Shown: piece by piece, positions 49,387 through 55,299 of the stretch | Layout of the letters: each line of letters begins with the position of its first letter | Position numbering within the stretch: the first letter of the stretch is position 1 | NCBI GenBank assembly: GCA_944323785.1 | Contig: CALUTU010000010.1 | Coordinates: 1-64,000, forward strand | From: an uncultured Bacteroidales bacterium | Lineage (GTDB): Bacteria > Bacteroidota > Bacteroidia > Bacteroidales > UBA932 | Length of the DNA stretch: 64,000 nt | Direction of reading: 5' to 3' | Translations under genes and position numbers: made by a program | The notes under the pieces: model-generated | Told to the model about the DNA's origin: nothing | The model's database searches: none | What the model saw: the letters and a program-made list of their open reading frames with translations, nothing else

Positions 49387-51441
49387 ATGAAGGAATTTAA
49401 GCGTTATCTTGTTACGTCCGCTCTGCCTTATGCCAACGGACCTGTTCACATCGGACACCTTGCGGGAGTATATGTGCCCGCCGACATCTATGTGCGTTAT
49501 CTCCGGATGTGCGGCAGGGACGTGTTCTTCGTCGGCGGTTCGGACGAGCACGGAGTGCCCATTACCATACAGGCCCGCAAGCAGGGCTGCTCTCCCCAGG
49601 ATATCGTGGACAAATACCATAAACTGATCAAGGATTCGTTCGCGGAGCTCGGCATCAGTTTCGACATATATTCCAGGACCACGTCCAAAACTCATTACAA
49701 GACGGCCTCGGAGTTCTTCAGCAAGCTCTATAAGGACGGCAAGTTCATCGAGAAGGAGAGCGAGCAGTACTATGATGAGGAGGCCAGGCAGTTCCTGGCT
49801 GACCGCTATATCGTGGGAACATGTCCCAAGTGCGGCAACGAGAACGCTTATGGGGACCAGTGCGAGAAGTGCGGCTGCACTCTCAGTCCGGACGAACTCC
49901 TCAATCCCCGCTCGGCCCTGAGCGGAAACCCTCCGGTGAAACGCAGGACCAAGCACTGGTATCTGCCTCTGAACGAATACGAGCCCTGGCTTCGTCAGTG
50001 GATTCTGGAGGATCATAAGGAGTGGAAGGTCAATGTCTACGGTCAGTGCAAGTCCTGGCTGGACGGCGGCCTGCAGCCCAGGGCGGTGAGCCGCGACCTC
50101 GACTGGGGCATCCCGGTGCCAGTGGAGGGTGCCGAGGGCAAGGTGCTCTACGTCTGGTTCGACGCTCCGATAGGCTATATATCCAACACCATTGAGGCTC
50201 TTCCCGACAGTTGGGAGCAGTACTGGAAGAGTCCGGACACCAAGATGGTGCACTTTATCGGCAAGGACAACATCGTCTTCCACTGCATCGTCTTCCCCTG
50301 TATGCTGAAAGCCTACGGAGACGGATTCATCCTGCCTGAGAACGTGCCCGCCAACGAGTTCCTCAACCTCGAGGGCGACAAGCTCTCCACTTCGCGCAAC
50401 TGGGCCATCTGGCTGCACGAGTACCTGCGGGACTTCCCCGGCAAGCAGGACGTACTCCGCTACGTGCTCTGCGCCAATGCTCCCGAGACCAAGGACAACG
50501 ATTTCACCTGGAAGGACTTCCAGACCCGCAACAACTCCGAGCTCGTGGCCATCTACGGCAACTTCGTCAACCGCGCCGTGGTGCTGACCCATAAGTATTT
50601 CGACGGGAAGGTCCCCGCAGACCTCAGACATGAGGCCATAGATGACGAGACCCTCGCGCAGGTTCCGGCCATCAAAGCTGCCATCACGGAGGCTCTGGAG
50701 CACTACCGTTTCCGCGAGGCCCTCAAGGAGGCCATGAACCTGGCCCGTCTGGGCAACAAGTACCTGACCGACACCGAGCCGTGGAAGGTGGCCAAGACCG
50801 ACATGGACCGCACCGCCTCGATTCTCAATGTGTCCCTCAGGCTCTGCGCCGACCTGGCCATAGCATTCGCCCCGTTCATTCCGTTCTCCTCGGAGAAACT
50901 TCTGAACATTCTGAATCTTCCGAAAGATACCCTGAAGTGGGACAATATAGGCTGCGGCGGCCTGCTGCCCGCAGGGCATCAGCTCAGCAAGGCCGAACTT
51001 CTCTTCGAGAAGATTGAGGACGAGGCCATAAACGCCCAGATGGAGCGTCTGGAGAATATCCGCAAGGCAAATGCCGCCGCAGCGGCTGCCGCAGCTCCGA
51101 TCGAGCCGCAGAAGGCCGAGTGTACTTTCGACGAGTTCGGGAAGATGGATATCCGCACGGCCACCGTACTGGAGGCAGAGAGAGTGCCCAAGACCGACAA
51201 GCTTCTGAAACTCACGATAGATACAGGTATAGACAAGAGGGTGATAGTCTCGGGCATCGCCGAGTACTATACGCCTGAGCAGATGGTCGGCAAGCAGATC
51301 TGCATCCTGGCCAACCTGGCTCCCCGCAAGATACGCGGTATAGAGTCCAAGGGCATGATACTGATGGCACGCCAGCCCGACGGCAGGATGCGTGTTGTCT
51401 CTCCCGAAGAGACTCTGAAAAATGGGTCAACGATAGGCTAG
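49387..51441 (+). CDS. metG: methionyl-tRNA synthetase with C-terminal tRNA-binding domain
   Basis: Charges tRNA-Met. The HIGH motif is HIGH at 21-24, the zinc knuckle has Cys146, 149, 159 and 162, and the KMSKS equivalent is KLSTS (332-336). An anticodon-binding helical domain follows. The C-terminal EMAP/Trbp111-type domain (about 578-684; [19 protein letters not shown], shortened [12 protein letters not shown], and [18 protein letters not shown], shortened [12 protein letters not shown]) is complete. It is joined by an Ala-rich linker near 560. Its stop codon overlaps the convergent gene's stop. Confidence 0.96.
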
Positions 51442-52163
51442 GCTCCCTGCTGCTGTATCAGTTCCAGCTCCTCGTCGCTGTAGATGAGTGAATCAAGATG
51501 GCCGCTGCGTCCGAGCAAGATAAGGATGACAGCGGCTATTATTATGGCCGCTGCGACAGACAGCAGTATGATCCATATCCTGCTTCGTCCTTCGTGAGTG
51601 GTGGTGCCGTTTTCCGGAGCAGGTCCGGGCTTTTCTTGTTCCTGTTCCGGCTCCGGGTTGTGTATATCTGTCGTATCAGGTTCGCAGGTGGCCGTAGGAG
51701 TCTCATCGGGTCGGGACGTGCTCTCTGAAGATCTGGTGACCGGCTTCAATATTACCGGCTCGAATCCGAAGGCCTGTGAGAACACTCCTCCGTCGGTATT
51801 GTCGGTTACAAAGTAGGCGCTGCCGTCCAAAGTCAGTTTGAGCCTCCCGACTCCTGGAAAGTCTATGAATTTCCTTTCATGGAGCATCGGTTTAAGCTGT
51901 TTTAGAAAGGTGTCCAGCTCTATGTCGGCAGTGTTCCTGTCAATGCCGTATGTCTTGGTATAATAAGCCGCGAGCATATCTCCGGATGCCCTGTCGTCCC
52001 ACTTGAACGATATCCGCTTGGAAGGCGGGTAGATGGTCTTTCCGTCCTCGGAAAAATATGCCGGCATCGGCTCTGCCTGGAAATATCCCATTCCGGGAAG
52101 CGCAATGCGGTCATTATCAATGATCAGCTCCTTCAGGAGACGGGAAAGAAGATGGACATCCAT
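51438..52163 (-). CDS. membrane-anchored HU-CCDC81-like DNA-binding-fold protein
   Basis: A 241-residue protein from the ATG at 52163. The N-terminal half (about 1-125) carries two HU/CCDC81-type folds: [26 protein letters not shown], shortened [13 protein letters not shown], and [17 protein letters not shown], shortened [11 protein letters not shown] Pro/Glu/Thr-rich linker (about 140-195) leads to one transmembrane helix ([22 protein letters not shown], shortened [18 protein letters not shown]) and a 20-residue acidic end. Related Bacteroidota proteins usually continue with a SPOR peptidoglycan-binding domain; this one stops without it. The likely role is cell division or envelope-chromosome contact, by inference. 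It converges on metG with overlapping stops. Confidence 0.8.
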
Positions 52164-52227
52164 AGATAAATGCTTAAATTTTTTCAAGACAAAGTTAATT
52201 TATTTTTGGCTTATAAAAAAAAATATC

Positions 52228-52253: not shown

Positions 52254-52327
52254 TCCTCTTTAGCTCAGTTGGTTAGAGCACCTGACTGTTAATCAGGGGG
52301 TCCTAGGTTCAAGTCCTAGAAGGGGAG
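52254..52327 (+). tRNA. tRNA-Asn (anticodon GTT)
   Basis: A 74-nt tRNA. Acceptor TCCTCTT pairs with AAGGGGA (52320-52326), with one T-G wobble, and G is the discriminator. The D-arm is TAGCTCAGTTGGTTAGAGC-like, anticodon stem CCTGA/TCAGG with loop CTGTTAA and anticodon GTT at 52288-52290, and T-arm CTAGG/CCTAG. Its last 28 bases are part of a 96-bp repeat that recurs at 53113. Confidence 0.95.
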
Positions 52328-52395
52328 CGAGATTTACTATGTTTTCATAATGTTATTTTTTCCCCCTCTTCATGTGAATGACGAGGGGGTTTTTT
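52300..52395 (+). repeat. left copy of 96-bp direct repeat (tRNA-Asn 3' end plus terminator)
   Basis: Covers the T-arm, acceptor 3' strand, the following GCGAGATTTACTATG spacer and the CCCCCTC/GAGGGGG terminator with its T-run. It matches 53113-53208 at 94 of 96 positions; the differences are at 52314 (T/C) and 52318 (A/G), both in the T-arm. Confidence 0.95.
52362..52395 (+). terminator. tRNA-Asn terminator (left copy)
   Basis: CCCCCTC (52362-52368) and GAGGGGG (52383-52389) with an inner TTCA/TGAA helix form a stable hairpin followed by six T. Confidence 0.85.
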
Positions 52396-52430
52396 ATGTA
52401 TCTTTGGGTTGTATTTTTATATAACTTTAG

Positions 52431-52438
52431 TATCTTTG
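52431..52438 (+). promoter_or_regulatory. -7 box (TATCTTTG) of the toxin-antitoxin operon
   Basis: TATCTTTG ends only 4 bases before the toxin ATG, so the transcript would be nearly leaderless. A further TATCTTTG (52399-52406) lies upstream and aligns with the dnaG promoter copy. Confidence 0.55.
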
Positions 52439-52442
52439 CAGT

Positions 52443-52766
52443 ATGAAAAGGATAATCGCATACAAGGGGTACTATGCCGAATTCATGGCAAAGTTGTCGG
52501 AGCAGGAGAGGAAGAAGATAATGCGTGCGTTGCTGCTGTTTGAGACGGAGGACAAGATACCGCATCATTACATCAAGTTCATAAGGGACGGAATATACGA
52601 GTTTAGGGTGAACTATGGAAACAATGAGTTCCGGCTGTTCTTTACCTATGACGGAGATACGATAGTCATTCTCTTCAACTGCTTCAAGAAGAAGACGCAG
52701 AAGACCCCTAAAAGCGAGATAGACAAGGCAATAAAGTTAAAAAATGAATATTATGAGCACAAATGA
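52443..52766 (+). CDS. HigB/RelE-family toxin (phage-derived Gp49-like)
   Basis: A 107-residue basic protein of the RelE/HigB ribosome-dependent mRNA-interferase superfamily. The pattern KGYYAEFMAKLSEQERKKIMRAL (shortened KLSEQERKKIMRAL), KFIRDGIYEFRVNYGNNEFRLFF (shortened GIYEFRVNYGNNEFRLFF), IVILFNCFKKKTQKTP and a C-terminal helix with KNEYYEHK matches the Gp49/HigB type. It is followed by an antitoxin overlapping its end by 23 bases, in the toxin-first order typical of HigBA. It probably cleaves mRNA on ribosomes until bound by the antitoxin. It is enclosed by tRNA-Asn repeats. Confidence 0.85.
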   Translation: MKRIIAYKGYYAEFMAKLSEQERKKIMRALLLFETEDKIPHHYIKFIRDGIYEFRVNYGNNEFRLFFTYDGDTIVILFNCFKKKTQKTPKSEIDKAIKLKNEYYEHK

Positions 52767-53046
52767 CATTTACGATGTTAGCGCAGAACTTGAGAAGGAG
52801 TTCGGAGCAAAAGGCACGCCTCAGAGAGAAGCAGCGATAAACCATGCATGGGAGGAGTACAATGCTCAGATTCTTCTGGATGCAAGGAAGAATGCAGGAC
52901 TGACACAGGCAGAGCTGGCCAAACGCATAGGAGCCGACAAAGGCTATATCTCCCGTGTGGAGCGAGGTCTGACCATACCCACGGTCGCAACACTCTACAA
53001 GATAGCAGCGGCAATGGGAATGACGGTTGAGCTGAGACCTCTATAA
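52744..53046 (+). CDS. XRE-family antitoxin (HigA-like)
   Basis: A 100-residue antitoxin with an acidic N-terminal toxin-binding helix (AELEKEFGAKGTPQRE) and a C-terminal helix-turn-helix (about 50-95): ARKNAGLTQAELAKRIGADKGYISRVERG (shortened LTQAELAKRIGADKGY). The DNA-binding domain should repress the operon, and the N-terminal part neutralises the toxin. The start may be ATG 52744 or ATG 52753. It overlaps the toxin gene, so expression is coupled. Confidence 0.87.
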   Translation: MNIMSTNDIYDVSAELEKEFGAKGTPQREAAINHAWEEYNAQILLDARKNAGLTQAELAKRIGADKGYISRVERGLTIPTVATLYKIAAAMGMTVELRPL

Positions 53047-53112
53047 TCTTCGTGACAATACGTGCTGACTAATACAACTCATTGATTTACGCCCGAATGT
53101 AAACCGTTATGA

Positions 53113-53208
53113 GTCCTAGGTTCAAGCCCTGGAAGGGGAGCGAGATTTACTATGTTTTCATAATGTTATTTTTTCCCCCTCTTCATGTGAATGACGAGGG
53201 GGTTTTTT
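53113..53208 (+). repeat. right copy of the 96-bp repeat (tRNA-Asn 3' fragment plus terminator)
   Basis: A 28-base tRNA fragment (53113-53140: T-arm and acceptor 3' strand) without a 5' half, then the same spacer and terminator (CCCCCTC 53175-53181, GAGGGGG 53196-53202, T-run). The 11 bases before it (ACCGTTATGAG) weakly resemble the anticodon arm, so a longer tRNA copy may have decayed. Confidence 0.95.
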
Positions 53209-53211
53209 TAT

Positions 53212-53219
53212 TACTTTTG
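53212..53219 (+). promoter_or_regulatory. -7 box (TACTTTTG) of dnaG
   Basis: TACTTTTG ends exactly 4 bases before the dnaG ATG, the same spacing as for the toxin gene, suggesting a leaderless transcript. Confidence 0.55.
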
Positions 53220-53223
53220 GCTT

Positions 53224-55299
53224 ATGATAGACAGGGAAACGGTAGACAGGATACTGGACGCGGCTGACATCGTGGACGTGATCAGCGACTTCGTGACGCT
53301 CAGGCGGCGCGGGGCGAACTATATCGCATGCTGTCCGTTCCACAACGAGAAGACCCCGTCGTTCTCTGTCTCTCCGAGCAAGGGTATATTCAAGTGCTTC
53401 GGATGCGGCAAGGCCGGCAGTGCCGTAACCTTTATCATGGAGCACGAGCAGATGACCTATCCCGAGGCCCTGAAATATCTGGCCCGCAAGTACGGAATAG
53501 AGGTACACGAGCAGGAAGAGACTCAGGAGGATGCGCAGGACCGTCTGAAGAGAGAGTCGATGATGGCCGTGTCGGAGTTTGCGGCCAAATACTACACCGA
53601 CATGCTGTTCGGTTCCGCTGAGGGACATTCCGTGGGACTGTCCTATTTCAGGCAGAAGCGCGGCTTCTCCGAGGAGACCATACGGAAATTCGGGCTGGGC
53701 TGGTCGCCTTCCGGCAGATCATTTGCCGGAGAGCCGCCGGTGCCGTCCTTGGCAGAGGCTGCGTTGAGAGCCGGGTACAAGAGAGAGTTCCTGATCTCCA
53801 CCGGCCTGTGCTATGAGCACGGAGGAGAGTTGGTGGACAAGTTCCGCGAGAGAGTCATTTTCCCGATATATTCGCTCAGCGGCCGCATCATAGCTTTCGG
53901 AGCCCGGACGCTGAAAGACGACAAGAGCGTCGCCAAGTACCTCAATTCTCCCGAAAGCGAGATCTATCACAAGAGCAGCTCCCTGTATGCGATATATCAG
54001 GCCAAGTCCGCAATAGCCAGGGCGCAGAAATGCTATCTGGTAGAGGGCTATGCCGATGTCATATCGATGCATCAGGCCGGGATAGAGAATGTCACCGCCT
54101 CTTCGGGCACATCCCTGACAGTCGAGCAGATAAGGCTGATAAAGCGTTTTACCAACAATGTGACAGTGATGTACGACGGAGACTCGGCCGGTATCAAGGC
54201 CGCTCTGCGCGGAATCAATATGCTGCTCGAGGAGGGTATGACCGTCAAGGTGGCCCTGCTGCCGGACGGTCACGATCCGGATTCGTTTGCCCGGGCTCAT
54301 ACCCGGCAGGAGATTCTGGATTTTCTCCAGGAGCACGAGACGGATTTCATAGAGTTCAAGTATGCGCTGCTTTCATCGGACATCCAGAAGGATCCGATAC
54401 AGAAGGCTGAGCTGATAAGGGATATCATCGACACCATAGCGGTGATACCCGATCAGATAACGCGCTCGCTGTATGTCGAGCAGTGTGCTCAGCGGCTGTC
54501 CATGAAGGAGGACATGCTTTTTGCCGAGGTGGCGCGGATAAGGCGCAGGAAGATAGAGTCAGGAGAATACGAGCGGCGCAGGAGGGAGGAGAAGGAGGCC
54601 CGGTATGCCGCTGCCGTCGAGGAGGGCGATGCGGCGGTAGGAGAGTTTTCTGGGGCGGACCGCGGTACCGGTGCGGGGCAGGTGTCTTTCAGTCCGGTCC
54701 CGGTCCTGGACCTGTCGGAAAGGGAGCTGCTGTATTATCTGCTGAAGTTCGGGGAGTGCCTGATGACGTTCGAGGATCATCAGAAGTACGGGGCGGAGGC
54801 TCCGGTGATGGAGATAACCGTGAACGAATATATCTCCGCCAACCTGTCCAATGATGACCTGGAGCTTCACAATCCCCTGTACCGGAAGATATACGGGCTG
54901 TATTTTGACTTTCGGAAGGAACTGCTGGATGCTGCCGGGGAGACGGTTCCTGCCTCTGATGACCTTCAGACCGGGATAATGCACCGTATGGTCAACTGCG
55001 GTGATCCGGAAGTGACTAAGACGGTGGTGGATATCACAGAGGACAAGTACGAGCTGAAGGTGAAGGAATACATCAAGGCCCAGATTCCGGAACGTAATGT
55101 GATAGACAAGAATGTCCCCAAGGCAGTGCTGGTCTACAAACTCAAATATGTGGAATACACCTGCTCGCAGCTCATGGAAAGTCTCAGGCAGATGCAGCAG
55201 GACGCTGACACTGAGGCCCAGCAGGACATAATGCACCGGCTCAAGCTGCTGCTGCAGATTAAGAATGTCCTGGTCAAGGACCTGAACAGGGTGTCGTAG
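53224..55299 (+). CDS. dnaG: DNA primase
   Basis: Synthesises RNA primers at the replication fork. With the ATG at 53224 the protein begins MIDRETVDRILDAADIVDVIS (shortened MIDRETVDRI), the canonical primase start; an in-frame ATG 11 codons earlier lies inside the terminator repeat. The CHC2 zinc site has Cys37, His40, Cys58 and Cys61. The TOPRIM core has Glu274 in YLVEGYADV and the DGDSAG motif (Asp318, Asp320). The C-terminal helicase-binding region is about 470-691. It is the first gene after the tRNA-Asn repeat region. Confidence 0.96.
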   Translation: MIDRETVDRILDAADIVDVISDFVTLRRRGANYIACCPFHNEKTPSFSVSPSKGIFKCFGCGKAGSAVTFIMEHEQMTYPEALKYLARKYGIEVHEQEETQEDAQDRLKRESMMAVSEFAAKYYTDMLFGSAEGHSVGLSYFRQKRGFSEETIRKFGLGWSPSGRSFAGEPPVPSLAEAALRAGYKREFLISTGLCYEHGGELVDKFRERVIFPIYSLSGRIIAFGARTLKDDKSVAKYLNSPESEIYHKSSSLYAIYQAKSAIARAQKCYLVEGYADVISMHQAGIENVTASSGTSLTVEQIRLIKRFTNNVTVMYDGDSAGIKAALRGINMLLEEGMTVKVALLPDGHDPDSFARAHTRQEILDFLQEHETDFIEFKYALLSSDIQKDPIQKAELIRDIIDTIAVIPDQITRSLYVEQCAQRLSMKEDMLFAEVARIRRRKIESGEYERRRREEKEARYAAAVEEGDAAVGEFSGADRGTGAGQVSFSPVPVLDLSERELLYYLLKFGECLMTFEDHQKYGAEAPVMEITVNEYISANLSNDDLELHNPLYRKIYGLYFDFRKELLDAAGETVPASDDLQTGIMHRMVNCGDPEVTKTVVDITEDKYELKVKEYIKAQIPERNVIDKNVPKAVLVYKLKYVEYTCSQLMESLRQMQQDADTEAQQDIMHRLKLLLQIKNVLVKDLNRVS

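Follow-up and report, generated by a model that had tools for sequence, protein, structure and literature searches.

Do addiction modules outlast the mobile elements that carried them? This old question is raised by a 0.8-kb unit in a 64,000-nucleotide stretch of an uncultured Bacteroidales bacterium (hereafter the window; assembly GCA_944323785.1, contig CALUTU010000010.1, positions 1 to 64,000), where a HigBA-like toxin-antitoxin pair lies between a tRNA-Asn gene and dnaG, bracketed by two copies of the tRNA 3' end and its terminator. We propose, at a probability of roughly 0.6, that this unit is the immobilised remnant of an island of the tRNA-Asn 3' end whose addiction module survived. The window's genome is a draft (1.97 Mb, 36 contigs), as are all genomes compared, and several contigs end at the repeats in question. 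G000 denotes the window's genome, G001-G018 the other genomes of the genus, and L numbers individual loci; coordinates are collected in Table 1.

The two repeat copies agree at 94 of 96 positions in direct orientation, at a spacing of 813 bases. This match is beyond chance; within the 3 kb searched, the second-longest direct repeat measured 26 bases. Both mismatches fall in the T-arm (52314 T / 53127 C and 52318 A / 53131 G). An earlier sequence-only reading of the locus had described this repeat over T-arm, acceptor strand and terminator, had noted that the right copy is without a 5' tRNA half, and had seen only a toxin, an antitoxin and short spacers in between. All three statements were borne out: the repeat search returned the same coordinates, ARAGORN called no tRNA at the right copy, and gene calls placed the pair as sole content between the copies, with no integrase among it. 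The two terminators are of native type and mutually identical over 75 bases, and the left junction of the unit abuts the promoter region of the pair. The same reading had let the similarity run on into the dnaG promoter (TATCTTTGGGTT on the left, TACTTTTGGCTT on the right). We rejected the view that the duplication includes this tail: on the left the sequence belongs to the cassette that holds the pair (TTGGGTTG also precedes the pair in G002, G008, G015 and G016) and on the right it is native dnaG sequence, recurring at the empty sites of G012 and G015, so the resemblance probably lies outside the duplication.

The window's arrangement was found in none of the 18 other genomes of the genus, and in six of them (G004, G011, G012, G013, G015, G016) tRNA-Asn, one terminator and dnaG follow in a row. 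Because these six join tRNA-Asn directly to dnaG, the comparison supports reading the window unit as an insertion at tRNA-Asn. Such a junction had been named beforehand as the empty site to look for; of the two outcomes named as speaking against an insertion, an identical arrangement in every relative did not occur, and among relatives with a readable junction none had another complete tRNA where the right copy lies. Five genomes (G001, G003, G008, G010, G017) carry 3.2-3.4 kb between tRNA-Asn and dnaG, in G010 with three long open reading frames on the opposite strand. The two genes lie 12 kb apart and in opposite directions in G007. In G002 the pair, a right-arm sequence and a tRNA-Asn fragment stand on the dnaG side, and the complete tRNA-Asn ends a different contig. 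The junction was outside view in G005, G006, G014 and G018. The closest relative, G009, has a flanking gene identical to that of the window over 750 bases and shares the ATG directly behind the left terminator, and holds a different insert at the site. Compared with the collected sequences, this 610-bp insert matched no island left end; its matches were confined to its own contigs and a stretch of 35 bases on the dnaG side. At the same site (L041/L042; G009:C11, C73) a 164-base stretch is shared by the two contigs, and there is an additional, partial dnaG 5' end ~88% identical to that of the window.

Comparison with relatives showed the pair to move, to be tied to tRNA ends and to be foreign to the window site. 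The cassette was 96% identical in G002 and G008, where dnaG is 80% and 79% identical, 97% identical in G015 (dnaG ~99%), and 89% identical in G009 despite a dnaG 99.7% identical. Other insertion points, which the earlier reading had suggested seeking, do exist for the cassette, at 89-97% DNA identity in relatives; an identical unit with intact ends at a second site was not found in 199 genomes of the family. We named 51 relatives of the pair, 13 of them with a toxin at least 92% identical over the matched part. A displaced tRNA 3' fragment lies within ~0.7 kb of the toxin gene in eight of these 13: a pattern scan detected a same-strand displaced T-arm in seven (L079, L081, L082, L083, L085, L117, L122), and the eighth, L080, was missed by the pattern and spotted by eye. 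The 13 may be 12 copies, since L109 and L122 are probably halves of one; L109 ends at a tRNA-Pro-end/terminator copy. A single extra fragment-like pattern appeared in the 271 kb scanned, within the toxin gene of L115. Among the other 38 relatives, four (L087, L094, L099, L104) have a complete same-strand tRNA less than 400 bp upstream.

Of 44 usable loci, four (L083, L094, L099, L106) had the pair bracketed by direct repeats, against 0.11 expected from random 600-bp intervals away from the pair. Repeats had to be at least 30 bp long, 85% identical and spaced 650-1600 bp apart, seven short-flanked loci were dropped, and the limits on length and spacing were chosen after an exploratory look. L103, with repeats ~2 kb apart, and an island copy in G008 (10.6 kb) fall outside these limits. 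The L083 unit spans 1.5 kb and additionally encodes a DUF6567 protein. At L099 a displaced 5' tRNA-Gly half (2721-2757) was seen ahead of the complete tRNA-Gly, and, by eye, text resembling a tyrosine recombinase end after the right copy. Phages and plasmids were unsupported as main carriers, relatives occurring in one phage record (48% identity), two plasmid records (53%, 34%) and five IMG/VR loci (65-79%). Ends resembling those of integrons or transposons were judged by eye alone and set aside.

In this clade the pair often sits at the right ends of islands, between the cargo and an arm with its tRNA fragment. A 10.6-kb tRNA-Gly island in G008 carries a tyrosine integrase at the left-hand end and the pair at the opposite one; its core copies form a 94-bp repeat (97% identity), and no transfer gene was found among the Pfam matches of the 10 proteins scanned, the island having been searched in part. 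The 153 bases between the pair and the tRNA fragment in G002 were used as an arm query against 19 genomes and gave eight near-full matches in six of them (one being the query's own place). A displaced tRNA fragment followed all eight within ~20 bp, and a complete tRNA none; three further matches were limited to the first 28-30 bases. The window retains two pieces of this arm, its start and an inner stretch, joined over a 7-base GATTTAC repeat, after which it jumps to the tRNA behind the anticodon arm. The starting points of the right copies in G002, L083, L122 and L044 lead us to infer a crossover in the anticodon region.

The toxin of the pair matched PF05973 with 82.2 bits (cut-off 23.9) and its antitoxin HTH_3 with 56.5 bits (cut-off 23), and HigB1 chains were the only solved structures matching the toxin by sequence. 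As in type II HigBA systems, the toxin gene comes first, a PF05973 toxin is combined with an HTH_3 antitoxin and the genes overlap; unlike in those systems, the putative toxin stays below the cut-off of TIGR02683, the nearest NCBIfam model (36.2 bits vs. 62.85). The palindrome GTTGTATTTTTATATAAC may be the operator of the pair. We take TATCTTTG to be a -7 element of Bacteroidota type, and the pair is probably transcribed from this promoter of its own behind the tRNA terminator; the recurrence counts of both motifs refer to 44 of the 51 loci. Both genes are under purifying selection, with ratios of nonsynonymous to synonymous substitution rates (dN/dS) between window and relatives of 0.02-0.13 for the toxin (six comparisons) and 0.00-0.04 for the antitoxin (five comparisons). 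Seven of the eight copies sampled held the toxin and six the antitoxin, and the all-pairs toxin ratio was undefined owing to saturated pairs. Given these low ratios, the two genes look functional.

We hypothesize that an island integrated in the 3' end of tRNA-Asn, with the pair at its right end, next to the arm and the tRNA fragment that together make up attR. Integrase and cargo would then have been lost, the right arm cut to two pieces and the right core deprived of its anticodon part; the pair would have stayed behind with a promoter of its own, flanked on each side by the tRNA 3' end and terminator. Because the integrase is gone and the right core shortened, site-specific excision would no longer be expected. 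The unit could still be lost if the copies recombined homologously; on loss of the antitoxin gene the leftover toxin would harm the cell, which could be why just this module survived. Toxin activity and addiction as the reason for survival are what we infer. The sequence-only reading had offered a minimal element without integrase, decayed or mobilised in trans, and the decayed version gains from the arm pieces beside the pair and from the islands that end in it.

Among known systems the unit is best read as a decayed island resembling a cis-mobilizable element (CIME), which PMC5704250 defines as a decayed integrative and conjugative element (ICE) or integrative and mobilizable element (IME) retaining attL and attR. 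Like a CIME so described, it is without integrase or transfer genes and bracketed by copies of the target-gene end, and tandem arrangement with other units occurs (tRNA-Pro of G016). Unlike one, it measures less than 1 kb, carries a toxin-antitoxin pair as sole cargo and, if the crossover is rightly placed, has an attR that is not intact, the right core being without its anticodon part and most of the arm gone. A CIME is ICE- or IME-derived by definition, whereas the window unit is likened to it on its present layout. A displaced 3' fragment of the target tRNA and an empty site in relatives are also what a tRNA-integrated island should show; an integrase of its own is not present. The same article presents sgiAT of SGI1 as a toxin-antitoxin system that stabilises an integrative element. 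The window pair is similarly borne by integrated islands and could cause post-segregational killing, but it is all that remains of its element. Tycheposons, as described in PMC10872708, are tRNA-bordered cargo transposons of 4-200 kb with a tyrosine recombinase; a bordering tRNA gene and 3'-end copies are shared, and at 0.8 kb and with no recombinase the window unit falls outside that definition. We found no published title or abstract describing pair-only units between tRNA-end copies in Bacteroidales, in a search that left most subscription journals outside.

Two other toxin families are likewise found in units without an integrase, at tRNA-Phe and tRNA-Pro. One genus provides a natural series at tRNA-Phe, parallel to what we propose for tRNA-Asn: an 11.8-kb island in G013 with the integrase on the left and a nucleotidyltransferase/HepT-like pair on the right, a 7.5-kb island with an integrase in G015, a 947-bp unit in G010 with the nucleotidyltransferase/HepT-like pair alone, and a unit in the window's own genome with a shortened HepT-like gene. 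As the last keeps ~70 bases of a G015-type island left end together with a G013-type right end, it shows an internal deletion; the G010 unit has native-type terminators on both sides (by eye), and internal deletion is not indicated there. This series makes the idea that modules outlive their islands testable by strain comparison and loss assays, and our data suggest that lone chromosomal pairs beside tRNA genes may be island relics. Behind tRNA-Pro in G016, a 1232-bp unit, bracketed by a 109-bp repeat (98%), encodes a YafQ toxin (PF15738) together with a partner that matched HicB/ribbon-helix-helix weakly; it is followed in tandem by a HigBA unit, of a different family, that a third tRNA-Pro copy closes (69 bp, 97%). 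The HigBA unit is split over two contigs with an exact 131-base overlap, from which its size of 835 bp was derived. A less probable reading is that such units constitute a recurrent class of their own at the tRNA genes of Bacteroidales. These would be mini-islands of ~0.8-1.2 kb with three unrelated toxin families as sole cargo between tRNA 3'-end/terminator copies, either mobilised in trans by the integrases of islands or caught at the right ends of islands through recombination, some being locked in by loss of the right crossover site.

Several observations weigh against an island remnant at the window site. None of the genomes of the genus showed a tRNA-Asn island intact at both ends, and the copy in G002 has its left end hidden by a contig end and a right end without terminator. 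Four of the 13 close relatives (L084, L098, L123, L129) have no tRNA fragment nearby, and the brackets of L094 and L106 are without a tRNA core, a misfit for a simple tRNA-integrase story. At tRNA-Phe the left-hand terminator in the G013 and G015 islands is of island type, unlike the two native ones of the window, so that a simple deletion would not be expected to leave two native terminators; this objection is softened by the core copies of G008, L083 and L122, which include the terminator. That the native terminators are identical and the left junction abrupt fits an unequal join of two chromosomes at least as well as deletion.

In such a join, by template switch or one-sided illegitimate recombination between an empty-site and an island-bearing chromosome, a strand would leave the empty allele behind the tRNA terminator and resume in the occupied allele left of the pair. 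The pair would again be the right-end module of an island, and deletion inside one chromosome would be dispensed with. Besides the terminators and the left junction, the G010 tRNA-Phe unit, with terminators of a type that the G013 and G015 islands do not have on both sides, agrees with it, as do L094 and L106, where a terminator or the end of a protein gene appears in an equivalent layout, and four other tRNAs of the window's genome with end/terminator copies around short gene-free inserts. Alone, however, a join leaves the missing anticodon part and the shortened right arm unexplained, the tRNA-Phe unit of the very same genome is a plain internal deletion, and gene conversion between copies could likewise equalise the terminators. 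We regard this route as possible and distinctly less probable than a remnant formed by decay.

Integrase-less units at several tRNA genes, two of them in tandem at tRNA-Pro, could instead point to a pair-only mini-element that tyrosine integrases encoded by related islands mobilise in trans, and the window's genome does hold four integrase matches elsewhere, three over the cut-off. Some of these units (unit 1 at L122, L083) keep the anticodon part, in both core copies or in those that are visible. For the window copy this half of the earlier proposal is unlikely, because the anticodon part of its right core and most of its arm are missing, and no intact-ended twin turned up among the family genomes. 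A local event in which the tRNA end was duplicated in tandem and by chance enclosed a resident pair, also considered in the sequence-only reading, would give the direct-repeat geometry but is very improbable, being insufficient because pair and arm pieces are absent from the empty sites of relatives, and the pair is common to distant relatives at high identity.

Table 1. Features of the tRNA-Asn/dnaG locus of the window and of related loci
Feature	Position	Strand	Size, basis or remark
Complete tRNA-Asn (gtt)	52254-52328	+	ARAGORN
Left repeat copy (T-arm, acceptor 3' strand, terminator)	52300-52395	+	Repeat search; 99 bases identical to G009 tRNA-Asn 3' end and terminator
Cassette holding the pair	52401-53090	+	Found elsewhere in relatives, 89-97% DNA identity
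Palindrome, likely operator	52408-52425	+	Same pattern before 35 of 44 relatives; operator role inferred
Likely -7 promoter element	52431-52438	+	TA-n-TTTG pattern before 41 of 44 relatives
HigB-like toxin, 107 aa	52443-52766	+	PF05973 E 2.9e-23; HigB1 structures E 8e-5
HigA-like antitoxin, 100 aa, gene overlapping toxin gene	52744-53046	+	HTH_3 E 2.7e-15; best solved match HigA 6af3
Two island right-arm pieces	53040-53111	+	53040-53090 44/51 and 53084-53111 26/28 identical to G002
Right repeat copy (displaced tRNA-Asn 3' fragment and terminator, without anticodon arm)	53113-53208	+	
dnaG, native right-hand neighbour	53224-55299	+	
L083 bracket			110 bp; tRNA 3' end
L094 bracket			36 bp; terminator behind tRNA-Lys
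L099 bracket			54 bp; tRNA-Gly end
L106 bracket	L106 2794-3839		160 bp; 3' end of protein gene and terminator
G016 tandem units behind tRNA-Pro	L038 3505-5207 and L037 (G016:C76, C102)		Separated by tRNA-Pro 3'-end copies
tRNA-Phe unit of the window's genome, integrase-less	L136 2446-3340 (G000:C5)		796 bp; nucleotidyltransferase and shortened HepT-like gene

A survey of tRNA copies covered 63 tRNAs, 28 of them from the window's genome (a separate count gives 40 tRNAs there). Downstream incomplete copies were found at five of these 28 other tRNAs (Phe, two Gly, Cys, Pro), on which ground a general duplication process may exist in this genome. The copies at the two Gly, Cys and Pro genes enclose short palindrome-like inserts without genes. 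Gene-free inserts of this kind, ~100 bp long and between tRNA 3'-end/terminator copies, were seen at L130 (G000:C6), L134 (G000:C32), L143 (G000:C2) and L149 (G000:C26), and similar ones in G016 (L151, L160); the L134 unit is tandemly repeated more than twice. The upstream neighbour of tRNA-Asn in the window (51438-52187, minus strand) encodes a protein with two CCDC81-type HU domains (PF18174, PF18175).

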